Shown: piece after piece, positions 25,811-30,524 of the stretch
How positions within the stretch are numbered: position 1 is the stretch's first letter
How the letters are laid out: the number at the start of each line of letters is the position of its first letter
NCBI RefSeq assembly: GCF_014646155.1
Contig: NZ_BMMX01000005.1
Span: 62,001 to 126,000, forward strand
Direction of reading: 5' to 3'
DNA from: Mangrovihabitans endophyticus
GTDB taxonomy: Bacteria; Actinomycetota; Actinomycetes; Mycobacteriales; Micromonosporaceae
DNA: 64,000 nucleotides
The notes under the pieces: generated by a model
The model's input: the letters and a program-made list of their open reading frames with translations, nothing else
Told to the model about the DNA's origin: nothing
Database searches by the model: none
Made by a program: the position numbers and the translations under genes

Positions 25811-26950
25811 TCAGCGCCGCCAATCCAGGCAGACCATGACGGCGTCATCCTCCTGGTCGGCCCCCGCATGATAGTCGCGAAGCCCACGCATCACCGTACC
25901 GACCGCCTCGGTGGCGGGCTGCAGTCGCGTCCCGCGCAGCGCGGCCGGGAGGGCGGCATGCCCGTACGGCTGACGACCGCGCGGCACCGCTGCGTGCACT
26001 CCGTCACTGACGATGAGCATCCGGTCGCCCGGTTGCAGGTGGAATTCCTGGGTCTCGTAGCGGGTCTCGGCGAACATGCCCAGCGGCAGTTGCTGCTCCA
26101 GGGACACCGGCCGGATCTCCCCGTCGCGGGCGATCATGGCCTGCGGCGAGCCGGCGTCCACCGCGTCGACGCGCCCGCTCATCAGGTCCAGCTCCAGCAG
26201 CAGCGTCGCGGTGTGCATCGCCCCTCCGTGCCGGGCGTACACCGCGTCGGAGGCCAGCTCGGCCTGCTCCACGATGCCGGCGCCGGAGCGGCGCGCGTTG
26301 CGCATGGCGTTCACCGAAGTGGTGGTCAGCAGCGCGGCCGGCAGCCCGTCGCCGAACCCGTTGAGCACGGTCACGGTCAGCCGGTCGCCGGTGACCGACC
26401 AGTCGAAGTGGTCGCCGTGCACGTCGTACGCCGGTTCGAGCTGCCCGGCGACCAGGAAGCGCGGATCGCCGAGCGAGCGTCCGGGCAGCAGGTCCCATTG
26501 CAGCTCGGCGGCCATGGTGAGACGTTCCCGGCGTTGCACCCGGCGGTACCGGTCGGTATCCCGCTCGGCGGCGCGCAGCGCGACCGCGAGCTCGTCGGCC
26601 ACCAGGGCGAGTTGGTCGACCAGGGCCTTGTCGACCGCACGGCCGGTTTCCACGAACAACACGCCGAGCCGATCGCCGAATGCGGTGATCGGCAGATGCA
26701 CCCGCCCCGGATCGCCGACGCGTTCGGTCACCGGGAGCTGGCTGCCGAAGCAGCGCTGGCTCATCGGGCCGCCGGCCGGCCGATGAGGGTCGAGCGCCGG
26801 CCACAGCCCGGACATGGTCAGATCGCTCAGCAGCATCTCGACCCGGTCGGCGGCGGCTTCGGTGCGCAGGTGCTGCGCCACCACCTCCCCGAGCCGGTCA
26901 GGTGGCGCCGCGCGCAACAGCGCCCCGAGGGGCGTCGGACTGTCGGACAA
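25811..26950 (-). CDS. RsbU/SpoIIE-type PP2C phosphatase with N-terminal sensor region, altered metal site
   Basis: A 379-residue protein. Residues 1-130 look like a GAF-type sensor (VHLPITAFGDRLGVLFVE); a linker helix follows (RRERLTMAAELQWDLLPGR, the usual motif before these domains) and then the PP2C domain. Asp180 in VHGDHFDW and the aspartates in IVSDGV and DQEDDAV are kept. The metal-binding aspartate normally in GDVxGHG is Asn197 (VLNGFGDGLP). These phosphatases act on anti-anti-sigma proteins; activity here may be weak or lost. TTG at 26950 has GGAGAGG in front. An RsbW-like kinase gene precedes it. Confidence 0.85.
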   Translation of the reverse strand: MSDSPTPLGALLRAAPPDRLGEVVAQHLRTEAAADRVEMLLSDLTMSGLWPALDPHRPAGGPMSQRCFGSQLPVTERVGDPGRVHLPITAFGDRLGVLFVETGRAVDKALVDQLALVADELAVALRAAERDTDRYRRVQRRERLTMAAELQWDLLPGRSLGDPRFLVAGQLEPAYDVHGDHFDWSVTGDRLTVTVLNGFGDGLPAALLTTTSVNAMRNARRSGAGIVEQAELASDAVYARHGGAMHTATLLLELDLMSGRVDAVDAGSPQAMIARDGEIRPVSLEQQLPLGMFAETRYETQEFHLQPGDRMLIVSDGVHAAVPRGRQPYGHAALPAALRGTRLQPATEAVGTVMRGLRDYHAGADQEDDAVMVCLDWRR

Positions 26951-27079
26951 ACTGGCCTCTCCTCGTTCTCCGGGCACGGTTACGTCGGCCGGTAAGCGAC
27001 GATCTTCTCGTCGTCGTACGGCAATATTTGCTACGGAGCAAGGAGGATAGGGCATCGAGGGATGTGCCCGCCGAGATGG

Positions 27080-27478
27080 TCAGGCGAAGGTCTTCTCGAA
27101 GTGGATGAGGCTGCCGCTGCGCGGCGTCGACTGCAGGCGGACGTTGTCACTCAGCGCTCTGATGAGGAAGAGTCCACGGCCGTGCTCGCTGTCCGCGCCC
27201 GGGTCGTCCCCGGCCGCCTCGCCGATGTCGAATCCGGTGCCGTTGTCCCGCACGTCGATGGCGCACCGATCGTCGGCCACCTCAAGGCTGACCTCGAACT
27301 TGTCCGCGCCGGAGGCATGTTTGACCACGTTTCCGCAGGCTTCGGTGAGGGCGAGCTCCAGGTCGGCGCCGTACTGGCGGTCGACGTGCAGCACGCCGAG
27401 CGCGCAGCGCAGCAACCGTCGCACCGCGGGCACGCTGTCCACCTCGCACGGGAGGTTGAGACGTACGGACATGCGCAT
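27080..27478 (-). CDS. RsbW-type anti-sigma ATP-binding protein (GHKL fold)
   Basis: A 132-residue histidine-kinase-like ATPase. The N box ELALTEACGNVVKHA, G1 box DVRDNGTGFD and G2 box HGRGLFLIRAL are complete, so ATP binding and serine kinase activity on an anti-anti-sigma partner are expected. ATG at 27478 follows GGGGAG. It is 130 nt ahead of the RsbU-like phosphatase on the same strand, making a partner-switching pair, although no STAS-type anti-anti-sigma gene is seen in the window. Its target sigma factor is unknown. Confidence 0.88.
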   Translation of the reverse strand: MRMSVRLNLPCEVDSVPAVRRLLRCALGVLHVDRQYGADLELALTEACGNVVKHASGADKFEVSLEVADDRCAIDVRDNGTGFDIGEAAGDDPGADSEHGRGLFLIRALSDNVRLQSTPRSGSLIHFEKTFA

Positions 27479-27671
27479 CGTCGTTCGCTCCCCTCGTGTG
27501 CCGGGCGGCCACCGGTTGCTGACCTTGCCTAAGAGTTCCCCATGACGCGGTGGATAATCCGCCCGGCCGATTCCTGTTATCCCGGGTGCGCCGCATCGTC
27601 TCCCTTCCCGGCGGTGTCGCGAGGCGGCATCGTGCGCGATGATCGACCGCCGAGGGAAGGGCTGAGCACAC

Positions 27672-29522
27672 ATGCCGGAACAACCGGACACCGCGACAGT
27701 GGTGGCAGCCCGCGCGGGCGACCCCGGGGCCGTCGACCGGCTCGTGGCGGGATATCTGCCGCTCGTCTACACCATCGTGGGCCGGGCGCTGGACGGGCAC
27801 GCCGACGTGGACGACGTGGTGCAGGACGTCATGCTGCGAGTGTTGCGCAATCTCGGCGAGCTCCGTGACCCGGACGCCTTCCGGTCCTGGCTGGTGGCGA
27901 TCACCGTGCGGCAGGTGCGGGAACGGTTCCGGGCCCGACGTGGCGCCCCCGATGCGCTGCTGCCGGCCGACGTGCGGGACCCCGGCGCCGACTTCACCGA
28001 CCTGGCGATCACCCGGCTGGAACTGTCCGGGCAGCGCAGGGAGACCGCGGAGGCTACCCGCTGGCTGGACGAGGACAACCGGGAACTGCTGTCGTTGTGG
28101 TGGCTGGAGGCCTCCGGCGAACTGACCCGGGACGAGATCGTGGCGGCCACCGGCGTGACCCGGCAGCATGCCGCGGTCCGCATCCAACGGATGAAGGGCC
28201 AGTTGGAGACGGCCCGTGTGGTGGTGCGCGCGCTGAGCGCGACGCCGCGGTGCCCGGACCTGGACGCGGTGGTGGCGGACTGGGACGGGCGCCCCGGCAG
28301 CCTCTGGCGCAAGCGGATCGCCCGGCACACCCGCGACTGCCGGCTCTGTTCCCCGGCTTGGTCCGGTCTGGTCGCCGCGGAACGGTTGCTGGCCGGGATG
28401 GCGCTGCTGCCGGCGCCGCACGGCCTGCCGGCTCACCTGGGCCTGGGCGGGACGGCCGCCGTGCACGGCGCCGGCCACGGCAGCCACGCGCTGGCTGGCA
28501 AGATCGCCTTCGGGCTCACCCGCCGGGCGCTGACCGCGGCGCTGACCACCACCGCGGTGGCTGGCGGCGGCGCGGCAGCCGTGGTGTACCACCAGCACCA
28601 GGGCGACGACCCGGTGACCCAGGCCGCGGTCGTCTCGTCCCAGGCGCCGACGCCGCGGTTGTCACTGCCGTCGCCCACGCCGAGCGCCACCTCGGCCGCC
28701 GCGACGGCCACCGCGTCGCCGTCGACGACCACGCCGTCGCGTGCCGCGAAGACCTCGGTCGCGGCTGCCGCGCCGGCGCCCGCGGCAGCGTCCCGGAAGA
28801 AGGGTGTCAGCGTCTGGAAGTTCGCCGGGATGAAGGCGGCGCTGCGTGACGTCGGGGCCGGGTGGTACTACAACTGGGCCTCGAACAACGACGACGTGCC
28901 CGGCCCGTCGGGCGTCGAGTTCGTCCCGATGATCTGGGGCAAGGACAACGTCACCGACGCGACCCTGGCGCAGGCCCGGCGTGAGGGAAAGGTGCTGCTC
29001 GGCTTCAACGAGCCGGACATGGGCGGCCAGGCGGACATGAGCGTGGCGAACGCGCTCGCCGCCTGGCCCCGGCTGGAGGCGACAGGCATGCGGCTGGGCA
29101 GCCCGGCGGTCGCCTACGGCGGCGACACCCCCGGCGGCTGGCTGGACCAGTTCATGAGCGGCGCGACCGACCGCGGGCTGCGCGTCGACTTCATCACCCT
29201 GCACTGGTACGGCTCGGACTTCAGCGACGCCGCGGTCGACCAGTTCCTCGGGTACGTGGACGCGGTGCACCGGCGGTACGGGAAGCCGATCTGGGTGACC
29301 GAGTACGGCCTGATCAACTTCGGGGGGTCCCCGAAGTATCCGACCGGGGCGCAGGAGGCCGCCTTCATCAGGGGCACGACGCGCGGCATGGAGAAGCGCT
29401 CGTACGTCGAACGGTATGCGTGGTTCGGGCTGCCGGCGGTCGGTGACAGCGCCGACTTCGGTCTCTATCGCGACGGGGACACCCCCACCGAGGCGGGTAA
29501 GGCGTACCGGGCCGCGGGATAG
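27672..29522 (+). CDS. ECF sigma factor fused to zinc anti-sigma motif, membrane helix and external GH128-like glucanase domain
   Basis: One 616-residue reading frame. Sigma region 2 spans about 22-90 (HADVDDVVQDVMLRVLRNL), region 4 about 120-180 (ELTRDEIVAATGVTRQHAAVR). Next comes an HxxxCxxC motif (His219, Cys223, Cys226) as in zinc-binding anti-sigma factors, a membrane helix (about 284-306), a Thr/Ser/Pro/Ala-rich linker (320-375) and a C-terminal glycoside hydrolase core (378-616) of the GH128/Asl1-like type. Both catalytic glutamates appear intact: Glu447 in GFNEPD and Glu544 in WVTEYG. Orientation places the sigma part inside and the glucanase outside. ATG 27672 follows GGGAAGGGCTGAGCACAC. 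No frameshift separates the parts. Confidence 0.9.
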   Translation: MPEQPDTATVVAARAGDPGAVDRLVAGYLPLVYTIVGRALDGHADVDDVVQDVMLRVLRNLGELRDPDAFRSWLVAITVRQVRERFRARRGAPDALLPADVRDPGADFTDLAITRLELSGQRRETAEATRWLDEDNRELLSLWWLEASGELTRDEIVAATGVTRQHAAVRIQRMKGQLETARVVVRALSATPRCPDLDAVVADWDGRPGSLWRKRIARHTRDCRLCSPAWSGLVAAERLLAGMALLPAPHGLPAHLGLGGTAAVHGAGHGSHALAGKIAFGLTRRALTAALTTTAVAGGGAAAVVYHQHQGDDPVTQAAVVSSQAPTPRLSLPSPTPSATSAAATATASPSTTTPSRAAKTSVAAAAPAPAAASRKKGVSVWKFAGMKAALRDVGAGWYYNWASNNDDVPGPSGVEFVPMIWGKDNVTDATLAQARREGKVLLGFNEPDMGGQADMSVANALAAWPRLEATGMRLGSPAVAYGGDTPGGWLDQFMSGATDRGLRVDFITLHWYGSDFSDAAVDQFLGYVDAVHRRYGKPIWVTEYGLINFGGSPKYPTGAQEAAFIRGTTRGMEKRSYVERYAWFGLPAVGDSADFGLYRDGDTPTEAGKAYRAAG

Positions 29523-29531
29523 GCTGCGAAC

Positions 29532-30524
29532 ATGATTCGGTTCGGGTACAAGGCTTCGGCAGAACAGTTCGCGCCGGCCGAGCTGCTGGGCTACGGAGTG
29601 CGCGCCGAGGAGCTCGGTTTCGACTCGGTGTTCGTCAGCGACCACCTGCAACCGTGGCGGCACGACGGCGGTCACGCCCCGGCCGCGCTCCCGTGGCTCG
29701 GGGCGCTGGTCATGCGCACCAGCCGGGTGCTCGTCGGCACGAGCGTGCTCACGCCCACGTTCCGCTACCACCCGGCGGTGATCGCCCAGGCGTTCGCCAC
29801 GCTCGGCTGCCTGGCCCCCGGGCGGGTCGTGCTCGGCGTCGGCTCCGGTGAGTCGCTCAACGAGGTGCCGCTGGGTCTGACCTGGCCGGACGGCAAGGAG
29901 CGCTACGCGCGGCTGCGCGAGGCGGTGACGCTGATCCGCCGGCTGTGGACCGAGGACCGGGTGACCTTCGAGGGCACCTACTTCCGCACCGAGCACGCGA
30001 CCATCTACGACAAGCCGGAGCAGCCGGTGCCGCTCTACATCGGCGCCTCCGGGCCGTCCGCGACGCGGCTGGCCGGCCGGGTGGCCGACGGTTTCATCAC
30101 CACCAGCGGCAAGGGACACGACCTCTACACCGAGACGCTGCTGCCGGCGGTGCGCGAGGGCGCCGCCAAGGCGGACCGCAAGGCCGACGACATCGATCTG
30201 ATGATCGAGGTGAAGGTGTCCTTCGACCCCGACCGGGACCGGGCGCGTGCGGACACCCGGCACTGGGGCGCGCTGGCGCTGTCGCCGGAGGAGAAGACGG
30301 GCGTCGAGGATCCGATCGAGATGCAGCGTCGCGCCGACGCGTTGCCGGCCGAGCGGACCGCCACCCGGTGGATCGTGTCCGACGACCCGGACGAGCACGC
30401 CGCCAAGGTGCGCGAATACCTCGACATGGGCTTCACCCACCTGGTGTTCCATGCGCCCGGTCCGGATCAGGAGCGGTTCCTGCACCTGTACGGCGAGCAG
30501 ATCCTGCCCCGGTTGCGGAGCTAG
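29532..30524 (+). CDS. fgd: F420-dependent glucose-6-phosphate dehydrogenase
   Basis: A 330-residue luciferase-like monooxygenase-fold enzyme that oxidises glucose-6-phosphate and reduces F420. It matches mycobacterial Fgd along its whole length from memory: GYKASAEQFAP, SDHLQPWRHDGGHAP, GTSVLTPTFRYHPAVIAQAF, TSGKGHDLYTE, LPAVREGAAKADR and RWIVSDDPDE. The active-site histidine (SDH) and the phosphate-contact region are present. It starts 9 nt after the ECF fusion stop and lies 31 nt before a second F420 enzyme, so it may be read from more than one promoter. Confidence 0.93.
   Translation: MIRFGYKASAEQFAPAELLGYGVRAEELGFDSVFVSDHLQPWRHDGGHAPAALPWLGALVMRTSRVLVGTSVLTPTFRYHPAVIAQAFATLGCLAPGRVVLGVGSGESLNEVPLGLTWPDGKERYARLREAVTLIRRLWTEDRVTFEGTYFRTEHATIYDKPEQPVPLYIGASGPSATRLAGRVADGFITTSGKGHDLYTETLLPAVREGAAKADRKADDIDLMIEVKVSFDPDRDRARADTRHWGALALSPEEKTGVEDPIEMQRRADALPAERTATRWIVSDDPDEHAAKVREYLDMGFTHLVFHAPGPDQERFLHLYGEQILPRLRS

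Follow-up and report, generated by a model that had tools for sequence, protein, structure and literature searches.

The 64,000-nucleotide stretch of Mangrovihabitans endophyticus contig NZ_BMMX01000005.1 analyzed here (the window) carries a gene for a 616-amino-acid protein in which an extracytoplasmic function (ECF) sigma factor, a predicted zinc-type anti-sigma segment, a putative membrane helix and a glycoside hydrolase family 128 (GH128) domain follow one another in a single chain. We propose, with a probability of roughly 60%, that this single chain spans the membrane and switches transcription in response to beta-1,3-glucan. This reading builds on the domains themselves, on catalytic and zinc residues that are invariant amongst the relatives, and on a conserved upstream site whose neighbouring genes are not random.

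We infer a membrane topology in which the zinc-type anti-sigma segment of the chain would hold the N-terminal sigma factor at the membrane in an inactive state, with the external GH128 domain binding, and probably cutting, beta-1,3-glucan as the ligand. Upon glucan binding the anti-sigma hold would be lost, most likely because regulated proteolysis cuts the chain in or close to the membrane helix; once free, the sigma part would guide RNA polymerase to promoters of the form GTTATC-N16/17-GTCTCC. One predicted target is the gene's own promoter, which would create a positive feedback loop. Another is the sugar-uptake and GH2 operon that begins with a BTAD regulator, and many relatives would add secreted GH16 or GH64 glucanases or membrane-anchored GH128 proteins. 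The features concerned, with the evidence used to place each of them, are as follows.

27576-27603 (+): candidate autoregulatory ECF-type promoter, GTTATC-N16-GTCTCC (conserved upstream of relatives)
27672-29522 (+): one-chain ECF sigma/zinc-type anti-sigma/membrane helix/GH128 protein, 616 residues (profiles, alignment)
27723-27944 (+): sigma region 2, residues 18-91 (Pfam Sigma70_r2, model helices, PDB matches)
28032-28238 (+): sigma region 4, residues 121-189 (TIGR02937 span, model, SigW-RsiW alignment)
28251-28394 (+): predicted zinc-type anti-sigma segment, residues 194-241 (invariant residues, modelled helices)
28326-28349 (+): HxxxCxxC motif, residues 219-226 (sequence, alignment)
28521-28589 (+): putative single membrane helix, residues 284-306 (hydropathy)
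28590-28796 (+): Ser/Thr/Pro/Ala-rich linker, residues 307-375 (composition, alignment)
28797-29519 (+): predicted GH128 subgroup I endo-beta-1,3-glucanase domain, residues 376-616 (Foldseek, phmmer)
29010-29012 (+): codon of Glu447, predicted catalytic, matching E102 of AmGH128_I (alignment, spacing)
29301-29303 (+): codon of Glu544, predicted catalytic, aligned with E199 of AmGH128_I (alignment)

Domain architecture of the protein

The gene is a single open frame that starts with ATG. Within it, Sigma70_r2 matched residues 24-90 at 50.7 bits (cut-off 24, Pfam) and the sigma70-ECF model TIGR02937 matched residues 20-180 at 59.5 bits (cut-off 42.9, NCBIfam). Region 4 has no profile of its own, as Sigma70_r4 gave no match in the Pfam scan of the 616-residue protein. 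The AlphaFold model places helices at residues 18-91, 121-189 and 195-241, with predicted local distance difference test (pLDDT) values of 73 to 96 per block, and residues 4-185 superpose on the SigW chain of the SigW-RsiW complex (Z 12.7, 155 residues, root mean square deviation (rmsd) 3.6), regions 2 and 4 being aligned jointly with the anti-sigma-bound SigW. With the model score over its cut-off and both regions present, the protein is an ECF (group 4) sigma factor.

Conservation was assessed in a genome scan that returned at least 78 loci of relatives. The full-length alignment contains 55 sequences, namely the window protein, 49 frames taken from the match start and five taken from the longest frame; outside it are the broken frames L055 and L066, L062 at the end of a contig, and all loci of Streptomyces, Kitasatospora and Saccharothrix. 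The whole fusion is common to at least 54 relatives of the window protein, and across alignment A2 the sigma part is 60-90% identical to that of the window.

Residues 194-241 form a predicted zinc-type anti-sigma segment, having both the HxxxCxxC motif and an upstream ligand. The candidate zinc ligands C194, H219, C223 and C226 are invariant in 71/71 rows of alignment A1, and H219, C223 and C226 are kept in all 55 full-length sequences, the window's included; we take their spacing to resemble that of the RsrA zinc ligands. The segment was modelled with block pLDDT values of 92-96 for residues 191-230 and of 73 for residues 231-240, and the zf-HC2 profile, which describes a short and divergent family, gave no match in the Pfam scan of the protein. 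Further along the chain, the top 21-residue Kyte-Doolittle window reaches 1.40 at residue 286 in the window protein, with a median of 1.83 over the 55 sequences and values of at least 1.6 in 49 of them. The linker that follows is poorly conserved (mean identity 0.30 over the 55 sequences) and mostly modelled at pLDDT below 50.

Glyco_hydro_cc matched residues 395-612 at 174.8 bits (cut-off 21) and was alone in the C-terminal part of the Pfam scan, where no carbohydrate-binding module like that of SCO4117 was found. The closest structure is 6uaq, AmGH128_I of Amycolatopsis mediterranei, solved as an isolated domain (Foldseek TMt 0.95, rmsd 1.5, 57% identity); the remaining GH128 subgroups show 21-31% identity to the domain (Foldseek), and phmmer gave an E value of 8e-88. 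Glu447 and Glu544 lie 97 residues apart, the same distance as that between E102 and E199, the positions altered in the GH128 subgroup I mutant structures 6uat and 6uas/6ufl; Glu544 aligns directly with the residue changed in 6uas and 6ufl. Judged by its fold, its sequence and these two predicted catalytic glutamates, the domain belongs to GH128 subgroup I. Both glutamates are invariant in the 55 full-length sequences and, because a domain used for binding only might have lost them, the cutting of glucan probably matters for function.

These results bear out most of an earlier note on this DNA, made from the sequence without database searches, which had described one open frame with ECF regions 2 and 4, an HxxxCxxC motif at residues 219-226 (the exact position), a Thr/Ser/Pro linker and a GH128/Asl1-like hydrolase with Glu447 and Glu544 as the catalytic pair. 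The glucanase fold on which that description depended is there in the match to 6uaq, with the pair in register. Amongst the profiles that the note had expected, Sigma70_r2 and Glyco_hydro_cc were recovered in the Pfam scan, and Sigma70_r4 and zf-HC2 were not. The membrane helix that it had placed at about residues 284-306 appears in the hydropathy of the relatives, but it is weak in the window protein and is not modelled as a helix.

Relatives of the sigma part

Amongst the matches listed, the named nearest relatives are mostly Actinoplanes-group strains, and the fusion is present in Lentzea and Umezawaea records too. The loci in Streptomyces, Kitasatospora and Saccharothrix have a sigma part that is 60-67% identical over the aligned part (alignment A1) and different ectodomains. 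A CAP ectodomain was found in 19 such loci (by Pfam on L064 and L073, by similarity for the rest); the CAP-type sigma loci are listed as L064, L065, L067-L077, L079-L083, L085 and L267, the last by eye. The ectodomain of L063 contained no domain recognised by Pfam. In M. endophyticus itself there is a second one-chain sigma factor, L004 (C3:11297-12217), with a DUF4185 match in its ectodomain, and a close sigma relative (E <=1e-40) was found in 114 of the 200 genomes of the family sample, with up to seven per genome. The shared sigma part and the differing ectodomains indicate that ectodomains are exchanged, with the sigma part staying in place.

A few of the loci depart from this pattern. The frames of L055 (Actinoplanes liguriensis) and L066 (Kutzneria sp. 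744) are interrupted within the matched stretch, perhaps through decay or assembly error. L038 (Cellulomonas humilata) carries an Actinoplanes-like and L044 (Nocardia sp. NRRL S-836) a Lentzea-like version of the gene, for which transfer, contamination or a misnamed record are possible explanations.

Candidate promoter and regulon

The earlier note had pointed to positions 27480-27671 as the place to look for an autoregulated promoter, and a promoter-like candidate lies there at 27576-27603, its first base 96 bp from the ATG. In relaxed form (GTTAT[CT]-N16/17-NTC[TC]CC) the site was found upstream of 55/55 aligned fusion genes and of 21/24 sigma genes whose ectodomain is of another type or was not read, including 19/19 with CAP. 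A strict pattern (GTTATC-N14/18-CGTC) was found in 36/55 fusion upstream regions and in 5/24 of those of the other-type sigma genes, and the upstream regions of L004, L062 and L066 had neither form. Upstream of L004 there is a near-variant, GTTATG-N16-GTCTGC, with two mismatches and 86 bp 5' of the start, which may be a diverged version of that gene's promoter. Outside the genus, 16 genomes have the exact site 50-116 bp upstream of their sigma match. In several genera the site precedes sigma genes whose ectodomains differ, which fits autoregulation.

Within the genus, GTTATCN{16,17}GTCTCC occurred 161 times and in 67/67 genomes. Control patterns were far rarer, with 24 occurrences in 22/67 genomes for spacers of 20-21, 17 occurrences in 16/67 genomes for spacers of 12-13, and four occurrences in the 67 genomes for the reversed pattern. 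Gene neighbours were considered for the 150 of the 161 sites that were listed: 38 were identical to known self-sites and the other 112 were read. The latter comprised 16 self-sites, 23 sites at GH16 genes, 21 at BTAD, 15 at DUF1996 and three at F5/8-type genes, as well as 14 at other genes and 20 with none, target classes being assigned by Pfam on one or two members each. Altogether 54 of the listed sites precede the sigma gene (38 by identical sequence and 16 by reading), and all 16 of the self genes read carry GH128. For comparison, 40 of 41 shifted-spacer sites were read. A recognised target class was found within 350 bp of 79/112 sites versus 0/40 controls, and within 1,500 bp of 80/112 sites versus 1/40 controls, the one being a GH16 gene 1,174 bp on.

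Amongst the listed sites, 25 GH16 genes in 25 genomes carry the site, counting L134, which has an F5/8-F5/8-GH16 arrangement (Pfam), and L162, which is 89% identical to L134, and in 22 of 23 the distance between the site's first base and the GH16 start is 95-103 bp. When one GH16 target was compared with the PDB, a glucanase was the best match (E 7.5e-78) and a laminarinase was also matched (E 1.4e-70). One GH64 beta-1,3-glucanase with CBM6 (L153, Pfam) carries the site as well, and its gene is divergent from the sigma-GH128 gene in the same genome. At the one GH16 locus annotated in more depth the neighbours include a further GH16 gene with CBM5/12 and a GH46 chitosanase gene; this neighbourhood is a hint of a fungal wall.

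In a further genus (g4), the site precedes, at eight loci (L248-L255), a GH128 protein without a sigma part that is 54-58% identical to the window GH128 domain and has one strong hydrophobic segment. These eight were chosen by likeness from 14 listed sites, and four of the six unread sites are in genomes without a sigma match; a p-value calculated for the g4 genomes was withdrawn on this account. In g4 the sensor-like ectodomain and the sigma factor are apparently on separate genes. Since the site also precedes GH16, GH64 and stand-alone GH128 genes in relatives, glucan sensing is indirectly supported.

Some further observations concern the sites themselves. Genes of DUF1996 type carry the site in 15 genomes (L137, L141, L142, L151, L152, L155, L176, L186, L196, L202, L203, L208, L210, L216 and L224); the label comes from Pfam on L142 and from similarity for the others, which for L216 is only 39%, and their role may relate to glucan. 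At one of the sites counted under none (L182) the sigma gene lies 1.4 kb on, behind a TnpB-like insertion; such a TnpB/OrfB-like insertion between site and sigma gene in one relative (L316, G031:C1:322000-326000) amounts to a natural uncoupling of promoter and sigma gene. In genus g7 (L256-L259) all four loci read have another site, 70-73 bp ahead of a gene for a 182-183-residue membrane-protein-like product.

The genome of M. endophyticus and the neighbouring genes

Two exact sites are present in the genome of M. endophyticus, one at the sigma-GH128 gene and one at the BTAD operon. The looser pattern GTTATCN{16,18}TCTCC had three matches there, at the gene itself, in the BTAD region and, by eye, at the parA/parB locus, and two further matches had one mismatch. 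The parA/parB site was regarded as chance. After the BTAD gene come genes with Peripla_BP_4, GH2 with AbfB, ABC_tran and BPD_transp_2 domains (Pfam), corresponding to a sugar-binding protein, a GH2 protein, an ABC ATPase and a permease; N-termini suggestive of lipoprotein and secreted products occur among them. A BTAD-headed gene run was read in two genomes. The first candidate start codon of the BTAD gene lies 34 bp beyond the site's first base, and the open frame also extends upstream through the site. M50 proteases are encoded in this genome and likewise in all 14 control genomes.

Genes for a SpoIIE-type phosphatase and a HATPase lie at 25811-27055 and 27080-27469 (-) of the window, divergent to the sigma gene, with relatives at 44 and 42 of 54 related loci, respectively. 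Downstream, a luciferase-like monooxygenase gene (29532-30524, +) begins 9 bp past the sigma-GH128 stop codon. Because of this distance, and because a relative of the monooxygenase gene is found at 44/54 loci, co-transcription with sigma-GH128 is possible.

Alternative explanations

Several observations weigh against a glucan switch of the proposed kind. The membrane helix is weak in the window protein by hydropathy and clearer in relatives, and AlphaFold shows no helix at residues 284-306, in a stretch (residues 244-349) with pLDDT below 50. The same site also lies upstream of the CAP-type sigma genes, which makes the promoter a feature of the sigma subfamily and, by itself, no proof of glucan. 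In M. endophyticus, neither the GH16 orthologue (80% identical) nor the two GH128 paralogues have a site within 350 bp when two mismatches are allowed; because of the orthologue, the regulon is seen in this genome only for the sigma-GH128 gene and the BTAD operon. Within the genus, 32/112 sites are without a recognised target, where 17-24 would be expected from the controls, and a second reading of 19 of the 20 loci with none gave no new coherent target. Because the target classes were drawn up from the very sites that were then counted, and the genomes compared are related to one another, the p-values are indicative only and small ones overstate the case. The suggestion of glucan sensing in the earlier note is strengthened, indirectly, by the glucanase genes of relatives that share the site and weakened by the site-less GH16 orthologue. 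As a whole the interpretation in that note is supported in part, its domains, GH128 assignment, catalytic residues and promoter-like site being confirmed.

It is improbable, in our estimate, that the ligand is instead a polysaccharide of the organism's own envelope or sporangium, which would make the protein a sensor of development or of the cell wall, and not of prey or food. The Actinoplanes group, to which most of the named nearest relatives amongst the listed matches belong, is known for its sporangia, and SpoIIE-type phosphatase and HATPase genes lie divergent to the sigma gene; however, the fusion is also found in Lentzea and Umezawaea records, genera that to our knowledge form no sporangia, and the targets include beta-1,3-glucanase families, with a GH46 chitosanase gene beside one GH16 locus. 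In excerpts of PMC12691653, the secreted hydrolases GimA and GimB of A. missouriensis are described as digesting the polysaccharide matrix of the sporangium, but there TcrA is the activator of gimA and gimB, and GH16 and GH64 are absent from the text of that paper. We likewise hold it unlikely that GTTATC...GTCTCC is read by another factor, the fusion being only a target of that factor, namely a surface enzyme whose sigma part is non-functional or unrelated. Outside the genus the site was found in 37/79 sigma-bearing genomes versus 18/85 lacking a close sigma relative (p 0.0008), and with self-site-only genomes removed the comparison became 26/79 versus 18/85 (p 0.11), with no significant enrichment; co-occurrence outside the genus was dropped as support on this account. 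The sites in these 18 genomes and the lack of significant enrichment of non-self sites speak for another factor, whereas the strong conservation of the sigma part and the position of the site, in several genera, ahead of sigma genes that differ in ectodomain speak for the sigma part as its reader. The two g12 sites read, in genomes without a sigma match, were next to no plausible gene by codon-position GC.

The step by which the sigma part would be set free can also be viewed differently. In a conformational switch without proteolysis, the glucan signal would pass via the helix and loosen the anti-sigma segment, with the sigma part staying membrane-bound. An anti-sigma segment in the same chain would be able to rebind, and ECF41-type extensions are thought, in excerpts of PMC8999054, to act through conformational change. 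Against this, a tethered sigma factor would have limited reach, the fused sigma factor IutY is activated by proteolysis (excerpts of PMC8999054), and the linker, given its length, its divergence and its modelled disorder, would make a poor lever; we regard such a switch as an unlikely alternative. Sigma release by proteolysis, which we hold with moderate confidence, is favoured because one-chain IutY is activated in this way, because membrane steps are described for SigI6/RsgI6 and because M50 proteases are present. It is highly improbable that the protein is a constitutively active surface glucanase whose sigma part is vestigial, or that the fusion was created by a frameshift in sequencing or assembly. 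The two relatives with broken frames could be cited for it, but the frame is intact in the window and the 54 aligned relatives, the zinc residues and many sigma residues are invariant, and conservation largely refutes this explanation. The artefact, which the earlier note had named as a possible objection, was rejected because the fusion was found again in many separately sequenced genomes.

Comparison with known systems and implications

Single-chain ECF sigma factors with a zinc finger, a membrane helix and carbohydrate domains are already known as ECF52 and ECF53. Excerpts of PMC8999054 and PMC5826349 describe them as one chain with an ECF sigma factor, a zinc-finger anti-sigma domain, a membrane helix, a Pro-rich linker and an external carbohydrate-related domain, and propose proteolytic activation. 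Glycoside hydrolase domains on some members, which the earlier note had mentioned, are predicted in excerpts of a 2024 review (PMC10766802). The likeness of the window protein to these groups is one of domain order; of the features described for ECF52, the zinc motif and the linker are seen in it, and its membrane helix is weak. SCO4117 of Streptomyces coelicolor, an ECF52 member in the excerpts describing it, bears a carbohydrate-binding module where the window protein has GH128, and influences both development and secondary metabolism. A search through four Streptomyces genomes returned no SCO4117-like protein, giving one close relative in each and one 34% match.

Further likeness exists with SigI6/RsgI6 of Clostridium thermocellum, where, in excerpts of PMC4711584, a GH10 sensor of very low activity, which sets a precedent for a glycoside hydrolase domain in this role, is linked to xylanase promoters and autoregulation, and the SigI/RsgI membrane steps comprise autocleavage, RseP and ClpXP (excerpts of PMC12203970). 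A glycoside hydrolase ectodomain as sensor, a transmembrane signal, autoregulation and promoters of enzymes for the same polymer would be common to both (PMC4711584 and PMC12203970, in the same excerpts). In contrast, SigI6 and RsgI6 are two proteins, with a SigI-type sigma factor and an RsgI autocleavage domain, and the GH10 domain has very low activity, whereas the window protein is one chain of ECF type whose family keeps the catalytic glutamate pair in 55/55 sequences. It may work like SigI/RsgI without being a member. IutY of Pseudomonas putida (ECF243) resembles it in having the sigma factor and membrane anti-sigma factor fused and proteolytically activated, but acts in siderophore (aerobactin) signalling, with no hydrolase domain mentioned in the excerpts of PMC8999054. 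Amongst the papers listed in full-text searches of the open-licence literature there was none that ties a sigma factor to GH128 and no report of a GTTATC...GTCTCC promoter or of a glucanase regulon of this kind. The candidate promoter, the candidate glucanase regulon and a testable functional proposal are what is new here.

More tentatively, we consider it possible that the protein is a feed-forward switch for attack on fungal walls, in which a competent glucanase sensor would free its own sigma part to turn on GH16 and GH64 enzymes, the BTAD sugar-uptake operon and itself, and that the sigma module and its promoter, combined with exchanged ectodomains (GH128, CAP and others), form a modular class of receptors in Actinobacteria. 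The sensor family (GH128 subgroup I), the candidate promoter and the candidate targets agree in substrate, which makes the sensed ligand directly testable. If the proposed glucan switch is correct, signal reception, transduction and promoter choice would all reside in one gene, and such a protein would be useful for engineered glycan sensors and for understanding the encounters between actinomycetes and fungi.

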